NCBI RefSeq assembly: GCF_004348335.1
Contig: NZ_SMJW01000014.1
Coordinates: 1 to 57,596, forward strand
Reading direction: 5' to 3'
DNA from: Actinomadura bangladeshensis
Lineage (GTDB): Bacteria; Actinomycetota; Actinomycetes; Streptosporangiales; Streptosporangiaceae
DNA length: 57,596 nt
The notes under the pieces are model-generated. The model saw only the letters and a list, made by a program, of their open reading frames with translations, did not search any database and was not told the DNA's origin. The position numbers were made by a program, and so were the translations under genes. Below are positions 437 to 11,459 of this stretch, piece after piece; position 1 is the stretch's first letter; each line of letters opens with the position of its first letter.

Positions 437-840
437 GATTCCCCCAGGCGGCTCCCCGCGAGGTCGACCTCGAAGGTCTCCGCGCACGCGGGGCACGCCA
501 CGGCGGCGCGGGTGTGCCCCTCGGCGTTGATCTGGCGGTAGAAGTCCTGCAGGAACGCCAGGTCGGACGCGAACAGGTTCTCCACGACGCCGTCGTGGAC
601 GGCCGGGAGGTCGCCGAGGCGGGTGATGACCCGTCCCAGCAGGACGACCGAGAGGTACGGGGGGTTCTCCCGCACCCGGACGTCCTGCAGGGGGACGAGT
701 TCGTCCTTGGCCGTGGCGAGCCGCATCGCGCCGCGCCTGTGCACGGTCCCGGACTCGTCGACGTAGCCGCGCGGGAGTTCGAACTCGAACTCGGTCCGCA
801 TCGGCCCGGCCGTTTCGACGGCGGGGGCGGAACGGCGCAT
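433..840 (-). CDS. phage tail assembly chaperone-like CIS protein
   Basis: 135 residues, with the ATG overlapping the tube gene stop by one base (TAATG). The middle (LVPLQDVRVRENPPYLSVVL, then VITRLGDLP and FLQDFYRQIN) follows the pattern of gpE/gp41-type tail assembly chaperones. The C-terminus carries a CPAC pair that could bind metal together with other ligands. A second in-frame ATG (MRTEFEFELP) lies 13 codons in and could be the true start. In contractile systems the gene after the tube usually codes for a factor acting on the tape measure or tube. That role is inferred here. Confidence 0.65.
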   Translation of the reverse strand: MRRSAPAVETAGPMRTEFEFELPRGYVDESGTVHRRGAMRLATAKDELVPLQDVRVRENPPYLSVVLLGRVITRLGDLPAVHDGVVENLFASDLAFLQDFYRQINAEGHTRAAVACPACAETFEVDLAGSRLGES

Positions 841-1283
841 TACTCGATGGTCAGTTCTTCGAAGGTGATGGTGACCTGCTCGGTGAGGGCCGAGGTGCCG
901 CCCGCCTCCGGGTTGCTGGCCTCGATGCCGCTGCACCAGGCGTTGCGCATGTGGTACCGCTTCACCGGGCTGTTCTGGTAGTCCATCAGGATGATGGAGG
1001 CGTTCTTGCGGGCGCTGCCCATGTCGCCCTTGAGCGACGCGTTGATCCAGTCGTTGAACGCCTTGCTCTGCGTCATGCCGCGCGTGACGCTGCATTCGCC
1101 CGCCTGCGCGACGCCCGGCATCTTCTTCGTGACGGGCTTGCCCTGCGCCGAGTTCTGCTTGAACTCGATGACGTCCTGCCTCTGCGACAGGCCGCTGACG
1201 GACTGCAGGTACTCGACCATCACGCCGTCGATCTGCAGGCCGAAATTATGTGCCGCTACGGCGTCGCCACCGTCGAAGGTCAT
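840..1283 (-). CDS. CIS inner tube protein (T4 gp19 / Hcp-like)
   Basis: 147 residues. The pattern FGLQIDGVMVEYLQSVSGLS near the N-terminus, a central WINASLKGD segment, then RNASIILMDYQNSPVKRYHMRNAW and a final TEQVTITFEELTIE strand is the classic T4 gp19-type tail tube fold. In contractile injection systems hexamers of this protein stack into the tube that is driven through the target envelope. It lies 30 bases downstream of the sheath gene, as in other CIS clusters. Confidence in the family is high. Which tube paralogue it is (Cis1 or Cis5) cannot be decided without the missing left part of the cluster. Confidence 0.93.
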   Translation of the reverse strand: MTFDGGDAVAAHNFGLQIDGVMVEYLQSVSGLSQRQDVIEFKQNSAQGKPVTKKMPGVAQAGECSVTRGMTQSKAFNDWINASLKGDMGSARKNASIILMDYQNSPVKRYHMRNAWCSGIEASNPEAGGTSALTEQVTITFEELTIE

Positions 1284-1313: not shown

Positions 1314-2864
1314 TTACTCTTCGAGTTCGCCGCCGCCGGAGATCTGCGCGAGGCGGAAGACCACGAATTCGGCGGGCTTCACCGGCGCGATGCCGATCTC
1401 GCAGACCACGCGGCCGAGGTCGACCGACTCGGCCGGGTTGGTCTCGGCGTCGCACTTGACGTAGAACGCCTCCTCGGGGCTGGCCCCGAACAGGGCGCCG
1501 TCCCGCCACTCGGTGACGAGGAACGCGGAGATGTTGCGCCGGATCCGTGCCCACAGCGCGTCGTCGTTCGGCTCGAACACCACCCACTGGGTGCCGATCA
1601 GGATCGACTCCTCCAGGTAGTTGAAGTAGCGCCGGACGTTCAGGTACCGCCACGCCGGGTCGGAGGAGAGGGTCCGGGCGCCCCACACGCGGACGCCGCG
1701 GCCGGGGAACGCGCGGATGCAGTTGACGCCGATCGGGTTCAGCAGATCCTGCTCGCCCTTGGTGACCTGGAGCCCGAGGTCCACGACGCCGCGGACGATC
1801 TCGTTCGCCGGTGCCTTGTGGACGCCGCGCTCGGCGTCGCTGCGCGCCCAGATGCCGGCGACGTGCCCGCTCGGCGGCATCAGCTGCGCCTTGCCGGACG
1901 ACGGGTCGAACACCTTGATCCACGGGTAGTAGAGGGCGGCGTACTTGGAGTCGTACCCGGCGGTCTCCTGCCGCCAGTCGCGGACCTGCTTGGCGTTCAG
2001 CCCGGGCGGCGGGTCGATGATCGCGACGCGGTCGCCCATCAGCTCGCAGTGCGCGATCATGCCGAGCTGGACGGCCTTGACGCCCTCCATGTCGATCGCG
2101 CCGCGCTCGTAGGCGGCCATCAGGTCGGGGGCGCACACCATGGTGACGGCGTCCAGGGCCTCCAGCCCGCCGAAGCCGGTGCGGTCGGCGGCGTCGCCGA
2201 GGTAGTCGTCGGGGCCGATGCCGCGGCCGTCCGCCGTAGTCGGCACCGGCACGGGCGCGGGCTCCAGCTTCACCGTCTGGGCCTCCGGCCTGGCGAGCTG
2301 CCCCGCCGGGGCCGCCTCCTCGACGGAGATGAGCTTCGACCGCTCCTTGACCTGCGTGACGATGTAGGTGCGGGCCGCCTTTTTCGCCGACACGTGGAAG
2401 CTCTCGACGACGGTGTCGTCCACCTTGACGTTCAGGCGGAACCGGTCGCCCTTGTCGTCGGCGTCGACGTCGGCGACCTCGACGCTGATCTCGCCCGCGG
2501 TGCCGGACGGCAGCGCCGACACCCGGAACCCGCCGAGTTCGGCGGGCGCACCGGCGGCGAGCTGCCGCGGCATGGCCTTGGCGTCCGCGCCGTGCCCCGA
2601 CGTCCCGCCGACGCGGATGACGTAGCAGGTGGTGCCGCCGTTGTTGAAGAACCCGTAGACCGCGTGCGCCAGGTAGTACCCGTCGGCGAACTCACCGAAC
2701 GCGGCGACGTACTGCGACCAGTTGGTCACCAGCGTGGGCTCGTTCAGCGGCCCCTCGGGCGCGAACCCCACGAAGGCGGCGACGGACGTGCCGACACCCT
2801 CGATGGGACGCGACCCGCTGGCCACCTCCTCGACGTACACACCGGGCGACAGATATGTGGCCAT
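1314..2864 (-). CDS. CIS contractile sheath protein
   Basis: 516 residues starting at ATG 2864 (MATYLSPGVYVEEV), with a GGGGG ribosome-binding stretch about ten bases upstream. An in-frame TTG three codons earlier is less likely. The N-terminal SPGVYVEEV, the central ALDAVTMVCAPDL and YYPWIKVFDPSSG segments, and the C-terminal YLNVRRYFNYLEESI and VVCEIGIAPVKPAEFVVFRL are hallmark sheath sequences. The protein forms the outer sleeve that contracts to fire the tube. A variable insertion domain sits at about residues 90-215. The Cis15 ATPase encoded further right is the expected sheath recycling or assembly factor. Confidence 0.95.
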   Translation of the reverse strand: MATYLSPGVYVEEVASGSRPIEGVGTSVAAFVGFAPEGPLNEPTLVTNWSQYVAAFGEFADGYYLAHAVYGFFNNGGTTCYVIRVGGTSGHGADAKAMPRQLAAGAPAELGGFRVSALPSGTAGEISVEVADVDADDKGDRFRLNVKVDDTVVESFHVSAKKAARTYIVTQVKERSKLISVEEAAPAGQLARPEAQTVKLEPAPVPVPTTADGRGIGPDDYLGDAADRTGFGGLEALDAVTMVCAPDLMAAYERGAIDMEGVKAVQLGMIAHCELMGDRVAIIDPPPGLNAKQVRDWRQETAGYDSKYAALYYPWIKVFDPSSGKAQLMPPSGHVAGIWARSDAERGVHKAPANEIVRGVVDLGLQVTKGEQDLLNPIGVNCIRAFPGRGVRVWGARTLSSDPAWRYLNVRRYFNYLEESILIGTQWVVFEPNDDALWARIRRNISAFLVTEWRDGALFGASPEEAFYVKCDAETNPAESVDLGRVVCEIGIAPVKPAEFVVFRLAQISGGGELEE

Positions 2865-3011
2865 GCGCGACAAACCCCCACAGAGCGATCAAGGTCTCAC
2901 CAGCGTGCCGTCCGGCTCAGACCACCAAAACGTCGGAACGGACCTCCCCGGAGGCAGCCTTCCGCGCACATTCGTGCAACCGCCCGCCCCGCGGACGCCG
3001 GTTCCGGGGGC

Positions 3012-5069
3012 TCAGGACGCCATCTTCGACGCGATGCGGGCGACGGCGCCGTCGCGGTCGGCGCCCATCTTCTCCGCCTTCCAGTCGAGCCCGAGCGCCG
3101 CGACGATCGACAGCGCGCTCCCGGCCGGGATCTCCACGCCCGCGACCGGTGTGTCCCGCTCGCCCGCAGCGGAATCGCGGTCCTGCTCGTCGGCCAGTTC
3201 CCAGAGGGCGCCGGCGACCAGTTCGCGCTTGCCGGGGCCGAGCGGCTTCATGACGTTCAGGGTGGCGAGGATGCGTTCCCCCGTCGTCCGCTCGGTTCCG
3301 GTGTCGTCGAGCCGCGCCCGGTCCCAGCGCTTGCCGAAGTACTTGCTGGTCTTGTACGCGGCGACGGCGAGGCCGAGGGCCGCGCCGAGCCCGGCCAGCG
3401 CCCAGCCGAGCGGGGTGGCTGCGATCGCGGCCCCGGCGGCGAAGGCCGCGACCAGGGCGGCCACGCCGGCGAGGGCACCGGCGATGGAGCCGGCCGCGAC
3501 GGTCGCCTTCTTGTGCTTGCCGCGCGCGTTCTTCTTGTGCGCGTACGCCGCGATGGCGGCGGTCAGCTCCGCGTCGCAGCGGCGCTTGGCCTCGGTGGCC
3601 TCGGCGATCCGGTCGGCGACGTTCTCGGTCTGCGCCAGCACGCGCTCCAGTTCGGCGCGCACGAGGTCGGCGGCCGGGTCGGCCGTCGCCGCGAAGGCGG
3701 TGTCGATCTCCGCCGCGAACCCGGTCATCGAGGCGGGTACCGGCGCGCCCGCGGGCTCGGGCCGGTTCGCCAGCTCGCGGGCCTCGGCCTCGACCTCGCC
3801 CCGCCATTCCCGCTGGGCCTGATAGAGCTCGACGAGCGCCCCGGCGAGGTCGCGGGAGTACATCAGCGTCCTGAGCTCGGAGTCGCCGGTGCCGCCCGCG
3901 CCGAGGACCTTCGCGAGCGCCTCGGCCCGCTCCCGCGCGTGGTGCGCCTTGCGGATGTAGCGTCCGCCCTGGATCAGCGAGGCGGGCAGGGTGAACGCGC
4001 CGCCGACACCGCCGGCCACGTCCGCCGCCCCGGACTCCGCGACCTTCAGCGCGCCGCCCGCGATGCCCACGGTGTTGCCGGTGAGGTTGAAACCGTCCTG
4101 CGCCGCGTCGCCGGCGGCCCCCTTCCAGGCCCGGCGGTGGTTGCGGTGGGCCGCTGTGCCCGCTTCGGCGGCCTTCATGCCGCGCCGTGCGCCGTGCATC
4201 GTCCGGGCGTCGGCGTAGAGCCCGGCGGCGGCCGCCCCGGCCCCGATGCCCGGTGCGCCGAGCCCTCCGCTGAGGGACGACGAGGTCGAGGCGTCCGAGT
4301 CGGCGAACTTGGAGCCGACGGACGCGGCCGTCCCCATCGCGGTCATCGCGCCGGACGGTTCGGCGGCGTCCTTGAGCGCCGTCGCCGCCTCGGTGCTGGA
4401 GAGCCGCTGGACGGCACCCGGCCCGGCGGGCGTCCCAGCGGGCGGTGCGGAGACGGGGGTGCCCGCCATGGCACGGCGGGCGGTGGCCTCGGCCTCGCGT
4501 TCGAAGCGGTCGGACGGGTCGCTGACCTTCAGCCCGGAGCCCGTGTCGGTGCCCGCGACCGGCCCGGACCGCTGCTGCACGACATGGGTGAGCTCATGGG
4601 CGAGCATCGTCCGCCCCGCCGTCGAGCCGGTGTCGTAGCGGCCGCGCTGGAAGACGATGTCGCTGCCCGTGGTGAACGCGTGCGCCTGCACGGACTCGGC
4701 CGCGGTGTGCGCGGCGTGGTCGGTGTGGACGCGGACGTCGGAGAAGTCCGCGCCGAGCCGCGCCTCCATGTCCGCGCGGACCGACGCCCCGAGCGGCGCG
4801 CCCGGACGGCTCAGCGCCTCGTGCACGGCGGACCGCTGCACCTCGTGGCCGCAGGACGGGCCGTGCTCGTGCCGTTCCGCCGCCGCCCCGGCCACGGCGG
4901 CGTTGCCCGCCGCGCGCTGGAGGGCGAGCATCTGCGCCGGCCCGAGACCGGCCAGCGTGCCGCGCGCGGCAGCGGCGGCGGCCCGGCCCGCGTGCGGTGC
5001 CCGCCGCCGGCTCGACCGCTCGCCCGCACCGGTGCGCCCGTTCTCGGTCACACGAGACTGCTCGAACAT
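3012..5069 (-). CDS. DUF4157-domain protein of the CIS cluster, putative effector or accessory
   Basis: 685 residues from ATG 5069. Residues about 85-167 form the DUF4157 domain, ending in HELTHVVQQ (158-166), a HExxH zinc-peptidase-like motif. DUF4157 proteins are repeatedly linked to extracellular-type CIS clusters, as cargo or accessory proteins. The N-terminus is disordered and Arg/Ala rich. A strongly hydrophobic Ala/Gly stretch around residues 515-575 (IAGALAGVAALVAAFAAG, then GWALAGLGAALGLAVAAY) could make a membrane hairpin, and long helical segments surround it. It is the first gene of the leftward CIS unit, divergent from the CisA-like gene. Cargo status is an inference. Confidence 0.75.
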   Translation of the reverse strand: MFEQSRVTENGRTGAGERSSRRRAPHAGRAAAAAARGTLAGLGPAQMLALQRAAGNAAVAGAAAERHEHGPSCGHEVQRSAVHEALSRPGAPLGASVRADMEARLGADFSDVRVHTDHAAHTAAESVQAHAFTTGSDIVFQRGRYDTGSTAGRTMLAHELTHVVQQRSGPVAGTDTGSGLKVSDPSDRFEREAEATARRAMAGTPVSAPPAGTPAGPGAVQRLSSTEAATALKDAAEPSGAMTAMGTAASVGSKFADSDASTSSSLSGGLGAPGIGAGAAAAGLYADARTMHGARRGMKAAEAGTAAHRNHRRAWKGAAGDAAQDGFNLTGNTVGIAGGALKVAESGAADVAGGVGGAFTLPASLIQGGRYIRKAHHARERAEALAKVLGAGGTGDSELRTLMYSRDLAGALVELYQAQREWRGEVEAEARELANRPEPAGAPVPASMTGFAAEIDTAFAATADPAADLVRAELERVLAQTENVADRIAEATEAKRRCDAELTAAIAAYAHKKNARGKHKKATVAAGSIAGALAGVAALVAAFAAGAAIAATPLGWALAGLGAALGLAVAAYKTSKYFGKRWDRARLDDTGTERTTGERILATLNVMKPLGPGKRELVAGALWELADEQDRDSAAGERDTPVAGVEIPAGSALSIVAALGLDWKAEKMGADRDGAVARIASKMAS

Positions 5070-5205
5070 AGCCCCGAGCGTCCCGCCGCGGCGCCGGCCG
5101 CGCCAGAGCGGAGGGAGCACATCATCGGGCAGTACGGCCTGCGCGATCGGGCATCCTGGTCCATTCGGGCAGGACATGCTGCACGGGGTGCTGCTCGCTC
5201 GGACG

Positions 5206-5240
5206 TTTCCCGGAGAGGGGGACGCTCGTAGCGTCGGAGG
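5206..5240 (+). promoter_or_regulatory. putative leaderless promoter of the CisA-like gene
   Basis: The in-frame stop TAG at 5229 forbids any start before GTG 5241, and the only GGAGG (5236-5240) abuts that GTG, too close to work as a ribosome-binding site. A TAGCGT hexamer at 5229-5234 lies at the right distance to be a -10 box for a transcript beginning at the GTG itself. Leaderless messages are common in actinomycetes. The -35 element is not clear. Confidence 0.35.
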
Positions 5241-6689
5241 GTGAGTATCTGGTCTTCGCTGGAACCGCGGTCCGCGACGGTCGATCCCGGGAAGCGCACG
5301 ACGGTCGCGCTGCGCGTCCGCAACACCGGCGACCTCGTCGAGGAGTACCGGATCGGTGTCGCGGGCGACCCGGCGGTGTGGGCGCGGGTCGAGCCGGCCA
5401 CGCTGCGGCTCTACCCCGGCACCACCGGGACCGCGGAGATCGTGTTCGCGCCGCCGCGCACGCCGGACGCGGCGGCGGGCGGGCATCCGTTCGCGGTCGA
5501 GGTGACGCCGACCGAGCAGCCCGGCGCGAAGGAGGTCGTCGAGGGCCACCTGACCATCACCCCGTTCACGGTGCTCCGGGCGGAGCTGGTGCCGCCGGTC
5601 GTGCGGGGCCGGTTCGGCGCCAAGCCGAAGGTCGCCGTGGACAACCTCGGCAACACCAAGGTCACCGCGTCGCTGAGCGGGAAGGACCCCGCCGGACGGC
5701 TGGGCGTCGAGCTGCACCCGGCGAACGTGCAGATCGAGCCGGGCCGGGCCGCCTGGGTGGACGGGCGGATCAAGCCCGGCGGCATCACCTGGTTCGGCCG
5801 GCGGGAGTCGCGCCCGTACACGGTGCACGTGCTGCGTTCCGGGCGCGAGCCGGTGGAGGTCGACGGCACCTTCGAGCAGGGCGCGATCATGCCGCGCTGG
5901 CTGCTCGGGACGGGCGCCTGCGTCCTGGCGATGGCGGTGGCGTTCACCGTCGCCTGGTTCGCGTTCCAGCCGAACTTCTCCTCGCGCGCGCGGGACGGCG
6001 CGATGAGCCCGATGGGCAACCCGCTGGCGCTGCCCAGCCAGCCGGAGCAGAAGGGGTCCCCGAGCCCGCCGGAGACTCCGACGGCCGCCCCGAGCAAGCC
6101 GGCCGGGCAGGCCGAGCCGAAGAAGAAGCGCAAGCCGCGCCCGCTGGGCGGGCCCGGGTCGATGCTGTTCTACCTGTCCGCGGGCGGGCCGTGGATGAAC
6201 CCGCCGCCGCCCGGCGAGCAGGCCCAGACGTGGAGCGTCCCGCCCGGCCAGAGCTTCCCGGCGGTCGGGAAGGACTGGCCCAAGGGCGGCAACCCGGCGA
6301 TACGCACGATCTACAACCTCAACGAGGTGCCGCGTCCGGGCAGCAGGCCGACCTTCGACTTCTACGTGCGGTCGCCGAGCGGGGCGACCGGCGTGACCGT
6401 GTCGGCGATGTTCCTCTGGCAGTTCGACGGGACCGAGGGCGCCCTCGACCGGCTGGACGTCTTCAAGCCGATCCGGCTGCGGGCGGACGGCGCCTGGCAG
6501 AAGTACACCGAGCTGGCCGGGCTCCAGTACTCGGCGGGGTCGGAGTACAAGCCGCTGACGTTGGGCCGGCTCGGGGTCGCGTTCTACGTCCGGTCGCCGG
6601 GCGGGCAGCCCGTCGAGGTCCGGACGAACGTCCCGCCGGGCGACAAGTACGTGTCCGCGCTCCGGATCCCCTACGTCACGCAGAAGTAG
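5241..6689 (+). CDS. CisA-like CIS membrane protein
   Basis: 482 residues, GTG start. Residues 1-210 look like two immunoglobulin-type beta domains (RTTVALRVRNTGDLVEEYRI; KVAVDNLGNTKVTASL). One transmembrane helix spans about 217-241 (WLLGTGACVLAMAVAFTV), followed by a Pro/Ser/Lys-rich linker to about residue 310 and a C-terminal beta domain (TIYNLNEVPRPGSRPTFDFY) that may bind ligand. With no signal peptide and a single helix, the N-terminal domains should be cytoplasmic and the C-terminal one outside. This resembles the layout reported for Streptomyces CisA, which brings the CIS to the membrane. The name is inferred from architecture and context. It is convergent with the ATPase gene, 16 bases apart. 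Confidence 0.65.
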   Translation: MSIWSSLEPRSATVDPGKRTTVALRVRNTGDLVEEYRIGVAGDPAVWARVEPATLRLYPGTTGTAEIVFAPPRTPDAAAGGHPFAVEVTPTEQPGAKEVVEGHLTITPFTVLRAELVPPVVRGRFGAKPKVAVDNLGNTKVTASLSGKDPAGRLGVELHPANVQIEPGRAAWVDGRIKPGGITWFGRRESRPYTVHVLRSGREPVEVDGTFEQGAIMPRWLLGTGACVLAMAVAFTVAWFAFQPNFSSRARDGAMSPMGNPLALPSQPEQKGSPSPPETPTAAPSKPAGQAEPKKKRKPRPLGGPGSMLFYLSAGGPWMNPPPPGEQAQTWSVPPGQSFPAVGKDWPKGGNPAIRTIYNLNEVPRPGSRPTFDFYVRSPSGATGVTVSAMFLWQFDGTEGALDRLDVFKPIRLRADGAWQKYTELAGLQYSAGSEYKPLTLGRLGVAFYVRSPGGQPVEVRTNVPPGDKYVSALRIPYVTQK

Positions 6690-6705: not shown

Positions 6706-8697
6706 TCACCAGGTGCCGGGGAGCAGGCGGCCCATCTTGAGGTACTCGCGTTCGGCGCCGGTCAGCACGTCCGCCATCGAGACGGGACGCCCGGCGGCCG
6801 CCGCCAGGTAGGCGGCGGTCGTGGCGGCGCTGCGGATCGCGCCGCCCGCCAGCTCGAACTCGCGTGCGCACCGTGCCAGGTCGAGGTCGTCCCCGCACGG
6901 CAGCGGCGGCGCCAGGCAGTGCGCCCACAGCGCGCGGCGCTGCGCCGCGTCCGGGAACGGGAAGTCGACGATCACGTCGAGGCGGCGGGTGAACGCGTCG
7001 TCGATGTTGGCCCGCAGGTTGGTGGTGAGGATCGCGATCCCGTCGAACGATTCCAGCCGCTGCAGCAGGAAGGCGCTCTCCAGGTTGGCGTAGCGGTCGC
7101 GGGCGTCCTTCACCTCCGACCGCTTGCCGAACACCGCGTCGGCCTCGTCGAACAGCAGCACGGCGTCCAGCCGGTCGGCCTCGGTGAAGATGCGCTCGAG
7201 GTTCTTCTCGGTCTCCCCGACGTACTTGTCGACGACCGCCGACAGGTCCACCACGTACAGGTCGAGGCCCAGTTCGCCCGCGACGACCTCGGCCGCGAGG
7301 GTCTTGCCGGTACCGGACTCGCCCGCGAACAGCGCGACCACACCGCGGCCCCGCCCGCCGCCGGTGCGCAGCCCCCAGTCGCCGAGCACGCGGTGCCGGT
7401 GCCGGGCGCGCGCGACCAGCTCGCCGAGCCGCCCGGCCTCCTCCGGGGGCAGGACCAGGTCGTCCCAGCCGACCGCGGGGCTGACCCGGCGGGCGTGCCG
7501 CTGCAGGCCGACCGCGTTCTGCAGCCGCGCGCCCCGGTGCAGGTGCCGGGCCTCCGGCGGGACGCCCTCCAGCGCGGCGTAGTCGAGTGCCGCGCGGACG
7601 GCGCGCCGGATCTGGCCCCGGTCGAACCGGTACGGCGCGGTGGCCGCCGCCACGTCGAACGCGACGTCGGGCGGGAGTTCGGCCGCCCACGCGTCCGCCT
7701 CGGGCGGCGCCGCGAACTCCAGCACGAGCGGCTGCCGGCGGCTCCAGGCCGGGTCGTAGGGCACCACCCCGGTCAGCACGGCCGCGACCGCGCCCGCGCC
7801 CGCGTCGTCGGTGAAAGCGTCGGTGGAGGCGTCGGTGAAGGCGCGGACCTGGGTGCCCGTGGTGACGGGGCCCGCGACGATTCCGGCGGAGCGCAGGCGG
7901 GCCTCGCGGATCAGGGTCGGGATGAGGGCCTCGTCCAGGCGCGACAGGTCGGCCCGCAGCACCGGCCGTCCCGCGCCGCCGAGCACCGCCGCGCCCGGCG
8001 CCATGCCCGACCCCTGGCGCGTCTCCCGCAGGTACACCACGCGCCGCACGGGGGCCAGCGCCCGCAGCTCGGGCGGAACGGGCCCGCAAGCGTCCTCGAC
8101 CTCGGTGACCGCGCCGGACAGCGCGGGATCGAGGTGGTCCCCGCCCAGCAGATGGTCGGTCACCCGGTCCGGTACGCGCAGGGCGCGGCCGAGGAACGGG
8201 CGGTCCTCGTCCTCCAGGACGACCAGGCCGCCCGCGAGCAGCGGCCCGGACGGGCCGAGCCGCGCGCGGGCCGCGGCCGACGCCGCCGGGCTTCCGCACA
8301 GGTCCAGGGCCAGGCCGACGGTCGCGCGGCGGCGGCTCACATCGTCGTTGAGGTAGCCGTACAGCGGTTCGAAGGAGCGGTCCACGTCGGGCGCGAGCGC
8401 GATCAGCAGAAGTTCGGCGTCGAACGCGTCCAGCCCGAAGCCGGCCGCGAGCCGCGCGAGGCGGGTGTCCCCGGCGCCGTCCTCGACCTCGCCCACCGCA
8501 CGGTCGTGGGCGGCGTCGCGTCCGGGACGCGGGACGCCGAGTTCGGCGAGCCGCGCAGCCCCCTCCGGCGAGACGTACAGGCCCCGGAACGGGTCCTGCG
8601 CCGTAGGATCGGCGGCGGCCCTGTCCTCCACCAGGACGCGCACCCGCCGCCGCAGCAGCTCGATCCTGGCGAGGAGGTGCCCGGCCGAATCGGTCAA
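6706..8697 (-). CDS. CIS AAA+ ATPase (Cis15/Pvc15-like)
   Basis: 663 residues. A TTG at 8697 overlaps the cap-protein stop (TTGA) and is the only sensible coupled start. The N-terminal ~400 residues are a helical region typical of Pvc15-type proteins. The C-terminal AAA+ module has Walker A GESGTGKT near residue 457, Walker B AVLLFDEADAVF near 512, a sensor 1 ILTTNL and an arginine-finger segment DDAFTRRLDVIVDFPFPD. The family is found in nearly all CIS clusters and is thought to remodel or recycle sheath. It is the last gene of the I36-LuxR-Cis16-Cis15 unit. Confidence 0.88.
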   Translation of the reverse strand: MTDSAGHLLARIELLRRRVRVLVEDRAAADPTAQDPFRGLYVSPEGAARLAELGVPRPGRDAAHDRAVGEVEDGAGDTRLARLAAGFGLDAFDAELLLIALAPDVDRSFEPLYGYLNDDVSRRRATVGLALDLCGSPAASAAARARLGPSGPLLAGGLVVLEDEDRPFLGRALRVPDRVTDHLLGGDHLDPALSGAVTEVEDACGPVPPELRALAPVRRVVYLRETRQGSGMAPGAAVLGGAGRPVLRADLSRLDEALIPTLIREARLRSAGIVAGPVTTGTQVRAFTDASTDAFTDDAGAGAVAAVLTGVVPYDPAWSRRQPLVLEFAAPPEADAWAAELPPDVAFDVAAATAPYRFDRGQIRRAVRAALDYAALEGVPPEARHLHRGARLQNAVGLQRHARRVSPAVGWDDLVLPPEEAGRLGELVARARHRHRVLGDWGLRTGGGRGRGVVALFAGESGTGKTLAAEVVAGELGLDLYVVDLSAVVDKYVGETEKNLERIFTEADRLDAVLLFDEADAVFGKRSEVKDARDRYANLESAFLLQRLESFDGIAILTTNLRANIDDAFTRRLDVIVDFPFPDAAQRRALWAHCLAPPLPCGDDLDLARCAREFELAGGAIRSAATTAAYLAAAAGRPVSMADVLTGAEREYLKMGRLLPGTW

Positions 8698-9311
8698 CGC
8701 ACCGCCCCGCGGTCCACGATCTCGCGGTCCACCGCCCCGCGATCCACCACAGTGACGTCGAGCCCCTCCACGGGAGGCCCGACCGGGTACTCCGGCGAGA
8801 CCGGGAACGGCGCGGTCACGACGACGTCGAGGGACGGTTTCAGCTCCCCGCCCAGTGCCGACCACAGATCGGCGATGGCGCGCGACTCGACCGGCGGGAC
8901 GGCGGCCGTCAGCGGGACCGGCGCGCCGAACCGCCGCAGCGTCCCGTCCGCCGGGAGGGACTCGCCGGGCAGGGTCTCGTTCCGCAGCAGGCAGGCCAGC
9001 ACCGCCGACAGCAGCCGGTGCTCGTCCTCCGGGCGCTTGGTCCACGCGGTGACCAGGTACGACAGCCGGAAGTAGCGCGGCGGCTGGCGCCGCGTGGTCA
9101 CCCTCCCGTCGGCGTCGCGGACCTGGAGCGGGCCCCGCTCGCGCCGCCCGGTGTCCTCCCGGACGTCGTACAGGTAGGCGTTCACGGCCGGGCCGTTGCG
9201 CTGCGCCGCCCACTCCCGCGTCGGCGCGTCGAACACCACCTTGACGTCGCTGCCGGCGAGCGCGCCGCCGTCCAGCAGCGCGCGCAGCGCCGCGTCCACC
9301 TCGTGGAGCAT
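8694..9311 (-). CDS. CIS cap / tail-terminator protein (Cis16, DUF4255)
   Basis: 205 residues with ATG 9311 overlapping the LuxR stop (TGATG). The N-terminal pattern MLHEVDAALRALLDGG, VVFDAPTREWAAQRNGPAVNAYLYDV and the RYFRLSYLVTAWTKRPEDEH segment are diagnostic of the Pvc16 N-terminal (DUF4255) family, which caps the distal end of the tube and sheath. The C-terminus ends in a short repetitive VDRGAVDREIVDRGAVR tail, encoded by imperfect 15-18 bp repeats. It is co-translated with the ATPase, as in many CIS loci. Confidence 0.88.
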   Translation of the reverse strand: MLHEVDAALRALLDGGALAGSDVKVVFDAPTREWAAQRNGPAVNAYLYDVREDTGRRERGPLQVRDADGRVTTRRQPPRYFRLSYLVTAWTKRPEDEHRLLSAVLACLLRNETLPGESLPADGTLRRFGAPVPLTAAVPPVESRAIADLWSALGGELKPSLDVVVTAPFPVSPEYPVGPPVEGLDVTVVDRGAVDREIVDRGAVR

Positions 9312-9925
9312 CAGATGTGCCCCTCACGGACGGCGTAGGCGACCAGGTGCGGGCGGTTCTTGAGCTGGTACCGCGTCATCATGGTGTGCAGGACGTTCTT
9401 CACCGTGCGCTCGGAGTAGGAGAGCTTCGCGGCGATGTCCGCGGTGTCGAACCCGTCGGCCACCAGCCGCAGCACCTCCTTCTCCCGCTCGGCCAGCCCG
9501 GCGGCGGTGAAGCCGTGCTCGCGCAGCGCGCCGCGCTGCAGTCGGCGCACCTGCTTCAGCAGCCGGCCGAGCAGGTCCGGGGGCAGGTCGCCGTTGCCGC
9601 GCGCGGCGGACTCGATCGCCCGCGCGATGCCGTCCGGCGTCGCCTCCTGCCGCCACAGGATCGCCACCACCCCGTGCTCGACGACCTCCAGCAGCTCGGC
9701 CTCCTTGATCCGCCCGGCGATCAGCACCCGGCGGGACCGGCCGGCGCGCCGCAGCATCGCCAGCGCGGTGTCGTCGACGCCGTCGGCGACCACCACCGTC
9801 ACCTGGGCCTCGGCGGTCCCGACCAGCACCAGTTCCGGACGCCCGCGCAGCCCGCCGGTCACCCCGGCCAGCGAGATCGGATCGGCCGCCTCGACCGCGA
9901 CGGGGATGCGCATCGTCGTCGTCAT
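9311..9925 (-). CDS. orphan LuxR-type response-regulator-like transcription factor
   Basis: 204 residues from ATG 9925, one base after the stop of the I36-like gene. An alternative GTG lies three codons upstream. Residues 1-110 resemble a receiver fold (VTVVVADGVDDTALAML, VVEHGVVAILWRQEATPDGIARAI), but the usual N-terminal acidic pair is not evident, so phosphorylation is doubtful. The C-terminal 65 residues are a LuxR/NarL helix-turn-helix (LAEREKEVLRLVADGFDTAD then ERTVKNVLHTMMTRYQLKNR). No histidine kinase is nearby. As part of the operon encoding cap and ATPase, it probably controls CIS expression. Confidence 0.85.
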   Translation of the reverse strand: MTTTMRIPVAVEAADPISLAGVTGGLRGRPELVLVGTAEAQVTVVVADGVDDTALAMLRRAGRSRRVLIAGRIKEAELLEVVEHGVVAILWRQEATPDGIARAIESAARGNGDLPPDLLGRLLKQVRRLQRGALREHGFTAAGLAEREKEVLRLVADGFDTADIAAKLSYSERTVKNVLHTMMTRYQLKNRPHLVAYAVREGHI

Positions 9926-9926
9926 C

Positions 9927-11459
9927 TCACTCACCCGCCGCATCGGAGACCGCGGCGGAACGCTCCTCCGCGGCCCCCTCCCCGGCGGACCGCGCTTCGG
10001 ACGACCCGGCCTCGGACGACCCGGTCTCGGAGGACCGCGCCTCCGGTGGCACCGCCAGCGCGCCGCCGGACCGCACCGGCCAGGTCGTGCGCGCGCCGGG
10101 CACCCGGCCGACCGCGATCACCGCGCAGCCCGCCGGGACGTTCGCGGGCACCGCGCGCCCGTCGTCGACGAACACCACCCGGGCGCGCTCCTCGCCGTCC
10201 CCCACGTCGGCGTCGCCCAGGCCGGCGGTGGACCCGCCGAAGCCGACCATGCGGATCCGGACGCCGTCCGACCAGGGGCTGTTGCCCAGCAGCCCGGACA
10301 GCGCCCGCACCGCACGGCGCGCGTTGCCGCGGGTCCCGTCCAGCGCGATCGGCCCGGGCGTCTCGGCGAGGTTCACCCAGGTGTCGGGCCGCACGGCCAC
10401 CAGCAGCGGGAACGGGCGGTGCGGGCCGATGTCGTCGGTCAGCTCGGTGATGTCGGACGCGGCGAGCGTCCAGCGGTCGCCGTCGGCACGCCAGGGCTGC
10501 GGCGCGTCGGCGTCGGGCGCGGCGAGCACGAGGGTGAGGGCGGTGTCCGCAAGCAGGACGGTGCGGACGGCGGGCACCTCGCGGTGCTCCTGCTCGCAGT
10601 CCACCGCCAGCAGCCGCAGCGCGCGGTCGACCCGGCGGGTGGCCTCGGGGTCGGCGCCCGGCGCCACGGCCCTCTGCTTCGGCTCCCGGCGGGCGGACGC
10701 GCCCCGGCGCCGGACGAAGATCCCCGCCACCGCGAGCGCGGCGAGCAGCGCGATGACACCGGCGCCCACGCCGATGACGATCAGCGCCCCGGTGCCGAGC
10801 CCGCCCTTGTCGTCGGACGTGGCGCTCACCGGCCGCGCCGGGTGCGTCCCGGCCAGTTCGGGCAGCGCGACCGCCGGGGTCGGCTCGTCCAGCTCCGGCA
10901 GGGTGCCCGTGGGCGTCGCGTCCGGTGCCGGCACCTGGGACGGCGCGCTGACCTTGGCCTTGGCGGACGGCGACTTCGACACCTTCGGCTTCCCGCTGGA
11001 CGCGCCCTCCTCCTCCTGCTGCTTCGGCGTGCGTTTCGGGGCGGCCTGCTGGGCGGGCGCGGAGCCCCCGCACGCGGCGGCGCGCCCGGGACGCATCCGG
11101 ATCGAGGTCACCTTGTCGCTCGGCAGCTGGTTCGTGCTGGAGTTGGGCGGCAGGCACAGCATCGGCTTCTGGAAGCCCGCGTCCTCGTACAGGCCCATGT
11201 AGGACGACGTCCGGTTGATCACGGAGTCCGCCCGGTCGTTGAGGCCGCCGTACTGGCCGATCAGCTCGACGTCCGCGCCCGGGTTGTTGGTGCCGATCAG
11301 CAGGCCCTGCAGGCCGGGATCGGCGTACAGGCACCACCAGCCCGCGTTGTCGCGGCACTCGCCCGCGTGCGCGGGCGGCGCGGTGAGCGGTGTCAGCGCG
11401 GTCACGGCCACGAGAACGGCGCCGGCCAGCACCCCCGCCTTCCCCCGAAGGCCGATCAT
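9927..11459 (-). CDS. secreted/membrane peptidase-inhibitor I36 (crystallin-fold) protein with cytoplasmic domain
   Basis: 510 residues from ATG 11459, preceded by AGGAGAG. A signal peptide (1-32, cut after AHA) is followed by a beta/gamma-crystallin-like I36 domain (about 34-115; CRDNAGWWCLYADPG, IGQYGGLNDRADSVINRTSS, YMGLYEDAGF). A Pro/Ala/Lys linker comes next, then one transmembrane helix near 221-248 with RRR after it. About 190 cytoplasmic residues follow, including NSPWSDGVRIRMVGFGG, similar in style to a segment of large actinomycete membrane regulators. The tail is a Ser/Glu repeat (RSSETGSSEAGSSEARS). As first gene before LuxR, Cis16 and Cis15, it may be an outside-in sensor. That role is inference. 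Confidence 0.7.
   Translation of the reverse strand: MIGLRGKAGVLAGAVLVAVTALTPLTAPPAHAGECRDNAGWWCLYADPGLQGLLIGTNNPGADVELIGQYGGLNDRADSVINRTSSYMGLYEDAGFQKPMLCLPPNSSTNQLPSDKVTSIRMRPGRAAACGGSAPAQQAAPKRTPKQQEEEGASSGKPKVSKSPSAKAKVSAPSQVPAPDATPTGTLPELDEPTPAVALPELAGTHPARPVSATSDDKGGLGTGALIVIGVGAGVIALLAALAVAGIFVRRRGASARREPKQRAVAPGADPEATRRVDRALRLLAVDCEQEHREVPAVRTVLLADTALTLVLAAPDADAPQPWRADGDRWTLAASDITELTDDIGPHRPFPLLVAVRPDTWVNLAETPGPIALDGTRGNARRAVRALSGLLGNSPWSDGVRIRMVGFGGSTAGLGDADVGDGEERARVVFVDDGRAVPANVPAGCAVIAVGRVPGARTTWPVRSGGALAVPPEARSSETGSSEAGSSEARSAGEGAAEERSAAVSDAAGE

Follow-up and report, generated by a model that had tools for sequence, protein, structure and literature searches.

The 57,596-nucleotide Actinomadura bangladeshensis contig analyzed here (NZ_SMJW01000014.1; hereafter, the window) carries a contractile injection system (CIS) operon that begins with a gene for a membrane protein, here called I36-TM for its Inhibitor_I36 domain and transmembrane (TM) helix, followed by a gene for a small LuxR protein. 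From sequence comparisons, we propose, with a probability of about 0.5, that the two control the CIS operon as a split transmembrane transcriptional regulator, in which I36-TM supplies a pseudo-ATPase transducer and LuxR carries a degenerate receiver. An event in the wall or outside the cell (binding of a ligand or protease, cleavage, or wall stress) would change the I36-TM protein, whose pseudo-ATPase-like domain would then hold, release, or activate LuxR by protein contact, with no phosphotransfer; LuxR would in turn alter transcription of the CIS operon, in either direction. The presence of a membrane protein in one operon with a likely CIS regulator suggests a kinase-free tie of the injection machine to cell-surface events and, if the proposal is true, offers a direct entry point to the signals that prompt CIS production in actinobacteria.

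The I36-TM and LuxR genes at the head of the operon

The window is an entire contig, and the minus-strand CIS operon is already under way at the contig start. Read 5' to 3' on that strand, the genes encode I36-TM, LuxR, the cap protein Pvc16, a WHD-AAA ATPase, a protein with an extracellular CIS (eCIS) core domain, the sheath, and the tube, after which the contig ends (Table 1). The I36-TM stop codon (9927-9929) and the LuxR ATG at 9925 leave a one-base gap, Pvc16 shares one base, the final one, with the LuxR stop codon, and the AAA ATPase gene is next, in agreement with an earlier sequence-only reading of the window, which had LuxR one base after the membrane protein and then cap and ATPase genes. 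Third-position G+C was 0.96 for the I36-TM open reading frame and 0.97 for that of LuxR; this codon bias and the presence of orthologues in other species ruled out a chance or misread open reading frame. No histidine kinase was found among the annotated downstream CIS genes or the two annotated upstream genes of the window.

The exported I36 domain and single TM helix described by the sequence-only reading were both recovered. Residues 1 to 32 appear by eye to be a cleavable N-terminal signal peptide ending in AHA, and the I36 domain scored 30.9 bits against PF03995 (gathering cutoff 21.1; E = 2.6e-7), a cutoff also passed by all four further I36-TM members scanned. Cysteines 35, 43, 102, and 130 were invariant in nine of nine aligned rows. 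The strongest hydropathy peak fell at residues ~226 to 244 (2.81), and the only other internal peak reached 1.65. Taken together, the signal peptide, the TM peak, and the RRR that follows it predict that the I36 domain lies outside the cell and the C-terminal ~260 residues inside. Mean pairwise identity across the nine rows was 0.53 for the I36 part, 0.55 for the cytoplasmic part, 0.30 for the linker, and 0.25 for the tail. The I36 part of the structure model had low confidence.

Table 1. Coordinates of the I36-TM and LuxR genes, their domains, and the CIS genes that follow them in the window
Feature	Coordinates	Strand	Remarks
I36-TM protein, 510 aa	9927..11459	(-)	In order: signal peptide, I36 domain, Pro-rich linker, TM helix, and pseudo-ATPase-like domain inside the cell
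Inhibitor_I36 (beta-gamma-crystallin-like) ectodomain, residues 39-98	11166..11345	(-)	Pfam PF03995
Pro-rich extracellular linker, residues ~132-225	10785..11066	(-)	From sequence; mean pairwise identity 0.30, 9 rows
Single TM helix, residues ~226-248, followed by Arg-rich stretch (RRR)	10716..10784	(-)	Hydropathy 2.81; model helix 235-248
Cytoplasmic domain, residues ~265-475	10035..10667	(-)	Homologue in membrane LysM/BTAD regulators; probable EccC-DUF/FtsK-like fold
P-loop place, residues 375-382 (GTRGNARR), no Walker A	10314..10337	(-)	Placing inferred, by fold and by eye
Stop-start junction, I36-TM stop/LuxR ATG, one base between	9925..9929	(-)	
LuxR regulator, 204 aa, atypical receiver and GerE helix-turn-helix	9311..9925	(-)	
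GerE DNA-binding domain, residues 144-198	9332..9496	(-)	PF00196, E 5.2e-13
Pvc16_N, CIS cap/tail terminator	8694..9311	(-)	PF14065, E 1.6e-47
CIS AAA ATPase with WHD domain	6706..8703	(-)	PF22977, PF00004; start approximate
Protein with eCIS core domain	3012..5828	(-)	PF13699, E 4.3e-32; start uncertain
CIS sheath	1314..2873	(-)	PF04984, PF17482
CIS inner tube	840..1283	(-)	PF06841, E 2e-28

The cytoplasmic domain and the LuxR receiver

The sequence-only reading had placed a domain of about 190 residues on the inner side of the membrane. The domain is present but larger: the cytoplasmic part comprises ~260 residues, of which ~210 were folded in the models. Structure prediction of this part, which that reading had suggested, gave a folded domain (pLDDT 84.6; pTM 0.83) whose best structural matches were the EccC DUF domain and the FtsK motor, with RFC, Rho, RuvB-like, and F-type ATPases close behind. 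The models thereby point to a likely degenerate EccC/FtsK ATPase fold lacking Walker A, and the motif GxxGxGK[ST] was found in none of the nine I36-TM rows. A sequence search of solved structures (query A2) returned only four rows (E values of 0.26 to 0.91), on the TM helix or linker.

The nearest relatives of the cytoplasmic domain were BTAD regulators and not CIS parts. It aligned with the domain of membrane LysM/BTAD regulators (hhalign 98.3%; E = 2.2e-14; 34% identity over 148 columns), and this shared domain, which follows the TM helix in both kinds of protein, was present in 1466 proteins at E values up to 0.001 (7991 candidates scored). The name LysM for the ectodomain of these regulators is that given by NCBI, for P0070 only. 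The BTAD output domain is absent from the window I36-TM chain: Pfam gave only I36 at E values up to 1, and the shared domain is the last one in the chain. No fusion of this domain to LuxR was seen among seven matches (candidates of ~280 to 890 aa); the 1466-protein set was not scanned for LuxR. We counted the kinship with putative membrane regulators toward a signaling interpretation, as a sequence-based argument. One such LysM/BTAD membrane regulator stands at the end of a Tad-pilus locus of A. graeca (L184, 8562-16662, minus strand).

The LuxR profile aligned with ChrA and VraR across both the receiver and the helix-turn-helix (NarL type). Receiver sites were counted in 81 LuxR rows, consisting of the window and 80 named loci that are the best 80 of 551 and biased toward Streptomyces. 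The acceptor position was occupied by Asp in 51 rows, Glu in 29, and Asn in 1; the window protein has Asp48. One residue of the acidic pair was retained in all 81, and the Lys of the phosphorylation site was found in none (0/81) across the four columns (91 to 94) around its expected place. A complete site (acidic pair, acceptor Asp, and Lys) is thus missing from the LuxR rows. The sequence-only reading of a receiver without an obvious phosphorylation site was correct in that the site is abnormal; given Asp48 at the acceptor position, however, it is better called degenerate than absent. Glu at the acceptor position in 29 of 81 rows together with the missing Lys argues for an action that may be independent of phosphorylation.

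Distribution of the pair and of the LuxR gene

A close Pvc16 match (E < 1e-80) was found in 11 of 65 Actinomadura genomes, and I36-TM in the same 11. I36-TM and LuxR were adjacent by coordinates in 10 of these, and in the eleventh (G282) both lie at contig ends. At 14 listed junctions, the distance from the I36-TM stop to the start of LuxR homology was -1 to +10 nt, and the LuxR stop touched the Pvc16 start; five of the 14 are from named loci, four of which duplicate other assemblies in the list. Named loci of the genus came from A. rupiterrae, A. macra, A. harenae, A. pelletieri, and A. oligospora. The distance matrices of I36-TM and LuxR correlated at 0.96 (10 loci; 0/999 permutations as high), but other gene pairs of the locus gave 0.79 to 0.93, so that the value indicates shared descent and not interaction or contact. 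A more distant Pvc16 match in G016 (E = 3.5e-12), without LuxR or I36-TM, was excluded from the 11; this Pvc16/ATPase pair (L223, G016:C31) perhaps belongs to another CIS type.

In a survey of the order (249 genomes, 57 genera), 20 genomes from 9 genera had LuxR (E ≤ 1e-35), and 5, all Actinomadura, had I36-TM (E ≤ 1e-30). Protein-database searches for I36-TM relatives returned five and seven proteins, including the window's own; those named were from Actinomadura, Spirillospora (two), and one record labeled Mycobacterium tuberculosis (P0003), which is 85% identical to the window I36-TM, is probably mislabeled or contaminated, and was excluded from all folds. A scan of genome contigs with a single I36-TM protein gave 599 stretches, none of which was confirmed. 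For each genome, 6 (order) or 23 (genus) candidates were scored for I36-TM and 12 or 48 for LuxR; with first-look candidates only partly scored, remote copies may have been missed. Among the data searched, the pairing is conserved but narrow, being confined to Actinomadura and two Spirillospora-labeled proteins. The association described by the sequence-only reading therefore recurs in other genomes of the genus, but beyond the genus LuxR is found without I36-TM.

The small LuxR gene ahead of Pvc16 is itself a widespread actinobacterial CIS gene and is not peculiar to the window locus. Pvc16 lay downstream of LuxR within 400 bp in 60 of the 80 named loci and farther away in 6, and it was not in the available stretch in 14, 2 of which have <1 kb of downstream sequence. 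A divergent LAL gene, like the 1201-aa gene of Streptomyces coelicoflavus (L163), was found within 3 kb in 53 of the 75 loci with at least 3 kb of upstream sequence. None of the five Actinomadura loci among those 75 had a LAL gene; I36-TM is there instead (a sixth, L103, begins 222 bases before LuxR). Going by gene order in S. coelicoflavus L163, and not by the SCO4261 sequence, SCO4261 is the presumed counterpart of the small LuxR, and SCO4263 that of the LAL. SCO4261 is listed as a LuxR protein (PMC3897704, PMC4848846) and SCO4263 as an AAA+LuxR protein (PMC3466318). We rejected the identification of the small LuxR with SCO4263/SlpR, since SCO4263 appears to match by position and class the divergent L163 gene.

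Published work indicates that SCO4263 is needed for SCO4253 transcription and for the SCO4251-4253 proteins (PMC2000904), which fall within the S. coelicolor CIS cluster sco4242-sco4263 (PMC10020575), and that S. lividans requires the SCO4263 homologue slpR for particles (PMC8505568). SCO4263 has a TTA codon and is a vancomycin-induced class I sigma-E target (PMC6767563); the head of the Streptomyces cluster therefore already has an envelope-stress input, by way of a different protein. With the small LuxR in Streptomyces mostly flanked by such a sigma-E-driven, SCO4263-like LAL, a membrane input in Actinomadura would replace a transcriptional one. In six loci of other hosts, namely, Cellulomonas, Actinoplanes, Pilimelia, Georgenia, Agromyces, and Amycolatopsis (L105, L119, L130, L139, L161, and L169), a protein of 420 to 474 aa (710 in L161), whose one TM peak falls near residues 224-258, is encoded on the opposite strand close to LuxR; the five scanned (all but L130) had no NCBIfam match above cutoff.

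LuxR genes were also found apart from CIS genes. The genus-wide search placed LuxR in the 11 genomes plus 2 more, G263 and G279, and around these two genes none of the CIS genes sought were found, either within 7.5 kb with six queries or within 12.5 kb with queries for Pvc16, the ATPase, and I36-TM. The LuxR orthologues of L220 (G279), L090 (G263), and L085 (G127), which have none of the sought CIS genes in their stretches, may be solitary regulators left behind or reused. Likewise, in L133, L144, L146, L156, and L158, LuxR faces a LAL gene, and the 10 kb downstream contain no Pvc16; the regulator pair may serve non-CIS loci as well. Within the window operon, the large product of 3012-5828 (minus strand), with its eCIS core (DUF4157) domain, is a possible cargo or cargo-loading protein.

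Alternative explanations and comparison with known systems

EccC/FtsK-like domains usually assemble into rings at membranes, and I36-TM might take part in the structure or firing of the CIS particle, as a membrane dock or trigger sharing an operon with LuxR only as a fellow CIS gene. The I36-TM gene does lie within the CIS operon, and across the genus it and the close cap gene are strictly found together; moreover, the Streptomyces CIS needs the single-pass membrane protein CisA (SCO4242) for membrane contact and firing (PMC12237407). However, a separate CisA-like gene is present in the window's own genome (G000:C27), in G007 (the query source), and in five other Actinomadura CIS genomes tested (in all, 9 of 10 genomes searched, the only miss being Agromyces), which weakens this explanation; on the same ground, we rejected as unlikely that I36-TM is the Actinomadura version of CisA. 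I36-TM resembles CisA as a single-pass membrane protein of actinobacterial CIS clusters, but CisA has its N terminus inside and its C-terminal domain outside, whereas the C-terminal domain of I36-TM is predicted to be inside. The kinship of this domain to BTAD regulators rather than CIS parts also speaks against docking or firing, which we consider doubtful. The CisA-like protein itself (L179 13810-15063, minus strand, and G000:C27) has an N-terminal CxxC pair (by eye), one TM peak, and behind it a C-terminal NADase-type glycan-binding domain; it is 47% and 42% identical to S. scabiei and S. coelicoflavus proteins, with which it was compared in place of SCO4242 itself and which are encoded ~20 and ~24 kb from LuxR, on its downstream side, provided that the contigs are those of the named records.

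The I36 family takes its name from a metalloprotease inhibitor, and the Pfam match of the ectodomain would fit a protein that protects the cell without signaling, as a wall-facing protease inhibitor or an envelope-stabilizing crystallin made together with a cell-death-linked CIS; CIS of S. coelicolor do act in cell death (PMC10020575). An inhibitor would have no need of a ~210-residue cytoplasmic domain as conserved as the I36 part (0.55 versus 0.53), and we regard such a role as unlikely. A little more improbable still is that a kinase encoded elsewhere phosphorylates LuxR, which would then be an ordinary response regulator, with I36-TM modulating that kinase or unrelated to it. The acceptor Asp of 51 of 81 rows, the window included, and the universally kept acidic residue would suit this idea, as would the histidine kinases reported to precede 9% of the eCIS operons that have GerE genes (PMC8213781); the loss of Lys in every row, Glu at the acceptor position in 29, and the lack of a kinase among the annotated window genes beside the pair do not.

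Several observations weigh against the proposed split regulator. I36 domains are also found in plain secreted protease inhibitors, and the LysM/BTAD relatives appear from sequence to be putative regulators themselves, so that the role of the shared domain there is likewise putative. Outside the genus, LuxR does without I36-TM, which is therefore not needed for LuxR function in general. G263 and G279 keep LuxR with neither I36-TM nor Pvc16, and together with the 14 of 80 loci without Pvc16, they indicate that LuxR is not tied to CIS alone; 5 of those 14 (L133, L144, L146, L156, and L158) still have the divergent LAL. No shared upstream operator motif was seen by eye in eight aligned upstream stretches. 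The kinase-less module dedicated to a CIS that the sequence-only reading had envisaged thus stands as far as the lack of a kinase among annotated neighbors, the coupling of the pair ahead of the cap gene, and their shared descent are concerned, but not in making LuxR peculiar to the locus.

The same reading knew of no described system of this makeup. LuxR beside CIS genes was already known, with GerE regulators reported next to 25.8% of eCIS loci and a histidine kinase upstream in 9% of those (PMC8213781); new are the I36-TM partner, its kinship to LysM/BTAD regulators, and the swap for LAL, none of which was found in an open-access literature search covering mostly titles and the beginnings of abstracts. 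That search returned only plant genomes and receptors for LysM with BTAD and nothing for Actinomadura with contractile injection or for "peptidase inhibitor family I36"; among the 8 of 21 papers listed on injection systems with I36, LuxR, or a pseudo-ATPase, none that was both relevant and new turned up. Through the shared domain, one experiment would be informative for the large family of membrane LysM/BTAD regulators. A tentative generalization is that an enzyme-dead FtsK/EccC-like domain may serve as a transducing module of kinase-free actinobacterial transmembrane regulators in general. In one arrangement, with one copy at a Tad-pilus locus, it would join a LysM ectodomain to a fused BTAD; in the other, at CIS loci, it would follow an I36 ectodomain and be split from the DNA-binding part, LuxR, letting envelope events directly gate production of the injection machine.

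Compared with known systems, the window LuxR resembles the eCIS GerE/LuxR regulators, including, by position, SCO4261, in being small and directly ahead of Pvc16; its neighbor is mostly a divergent LAL in Streptomyces and a coupled I36-TM in Actinomadura. SCO4263/SlpR, like I36-TM, is encoded at a regulatory locus adjoining the small LuxR gene, and SCO4263 is tied to envelope stress through sigma-E (PMC6767563); unlike I36-TM, it belongs to a different protein family, combining AAA and LuxR with no exported part seen. The EccC DUF domain, described as lacking a working Walker A (PMC11154593), and the FtsK motor have a modeled likeness in fold to the I36-TM cytoplasmic domain. The membrane LysM/BTAD regulators of Actinomadura and relatives (e.g., P0006 and L020; ~1000 aa) share with I36-TM an ectodomain, a linker, an Arg-rich end of the hydrophobic stretch, and the same cytoplasmic domain; they differ in having three N-terminal TM peaks, LysM in place of I36, and a fused BTAD output.

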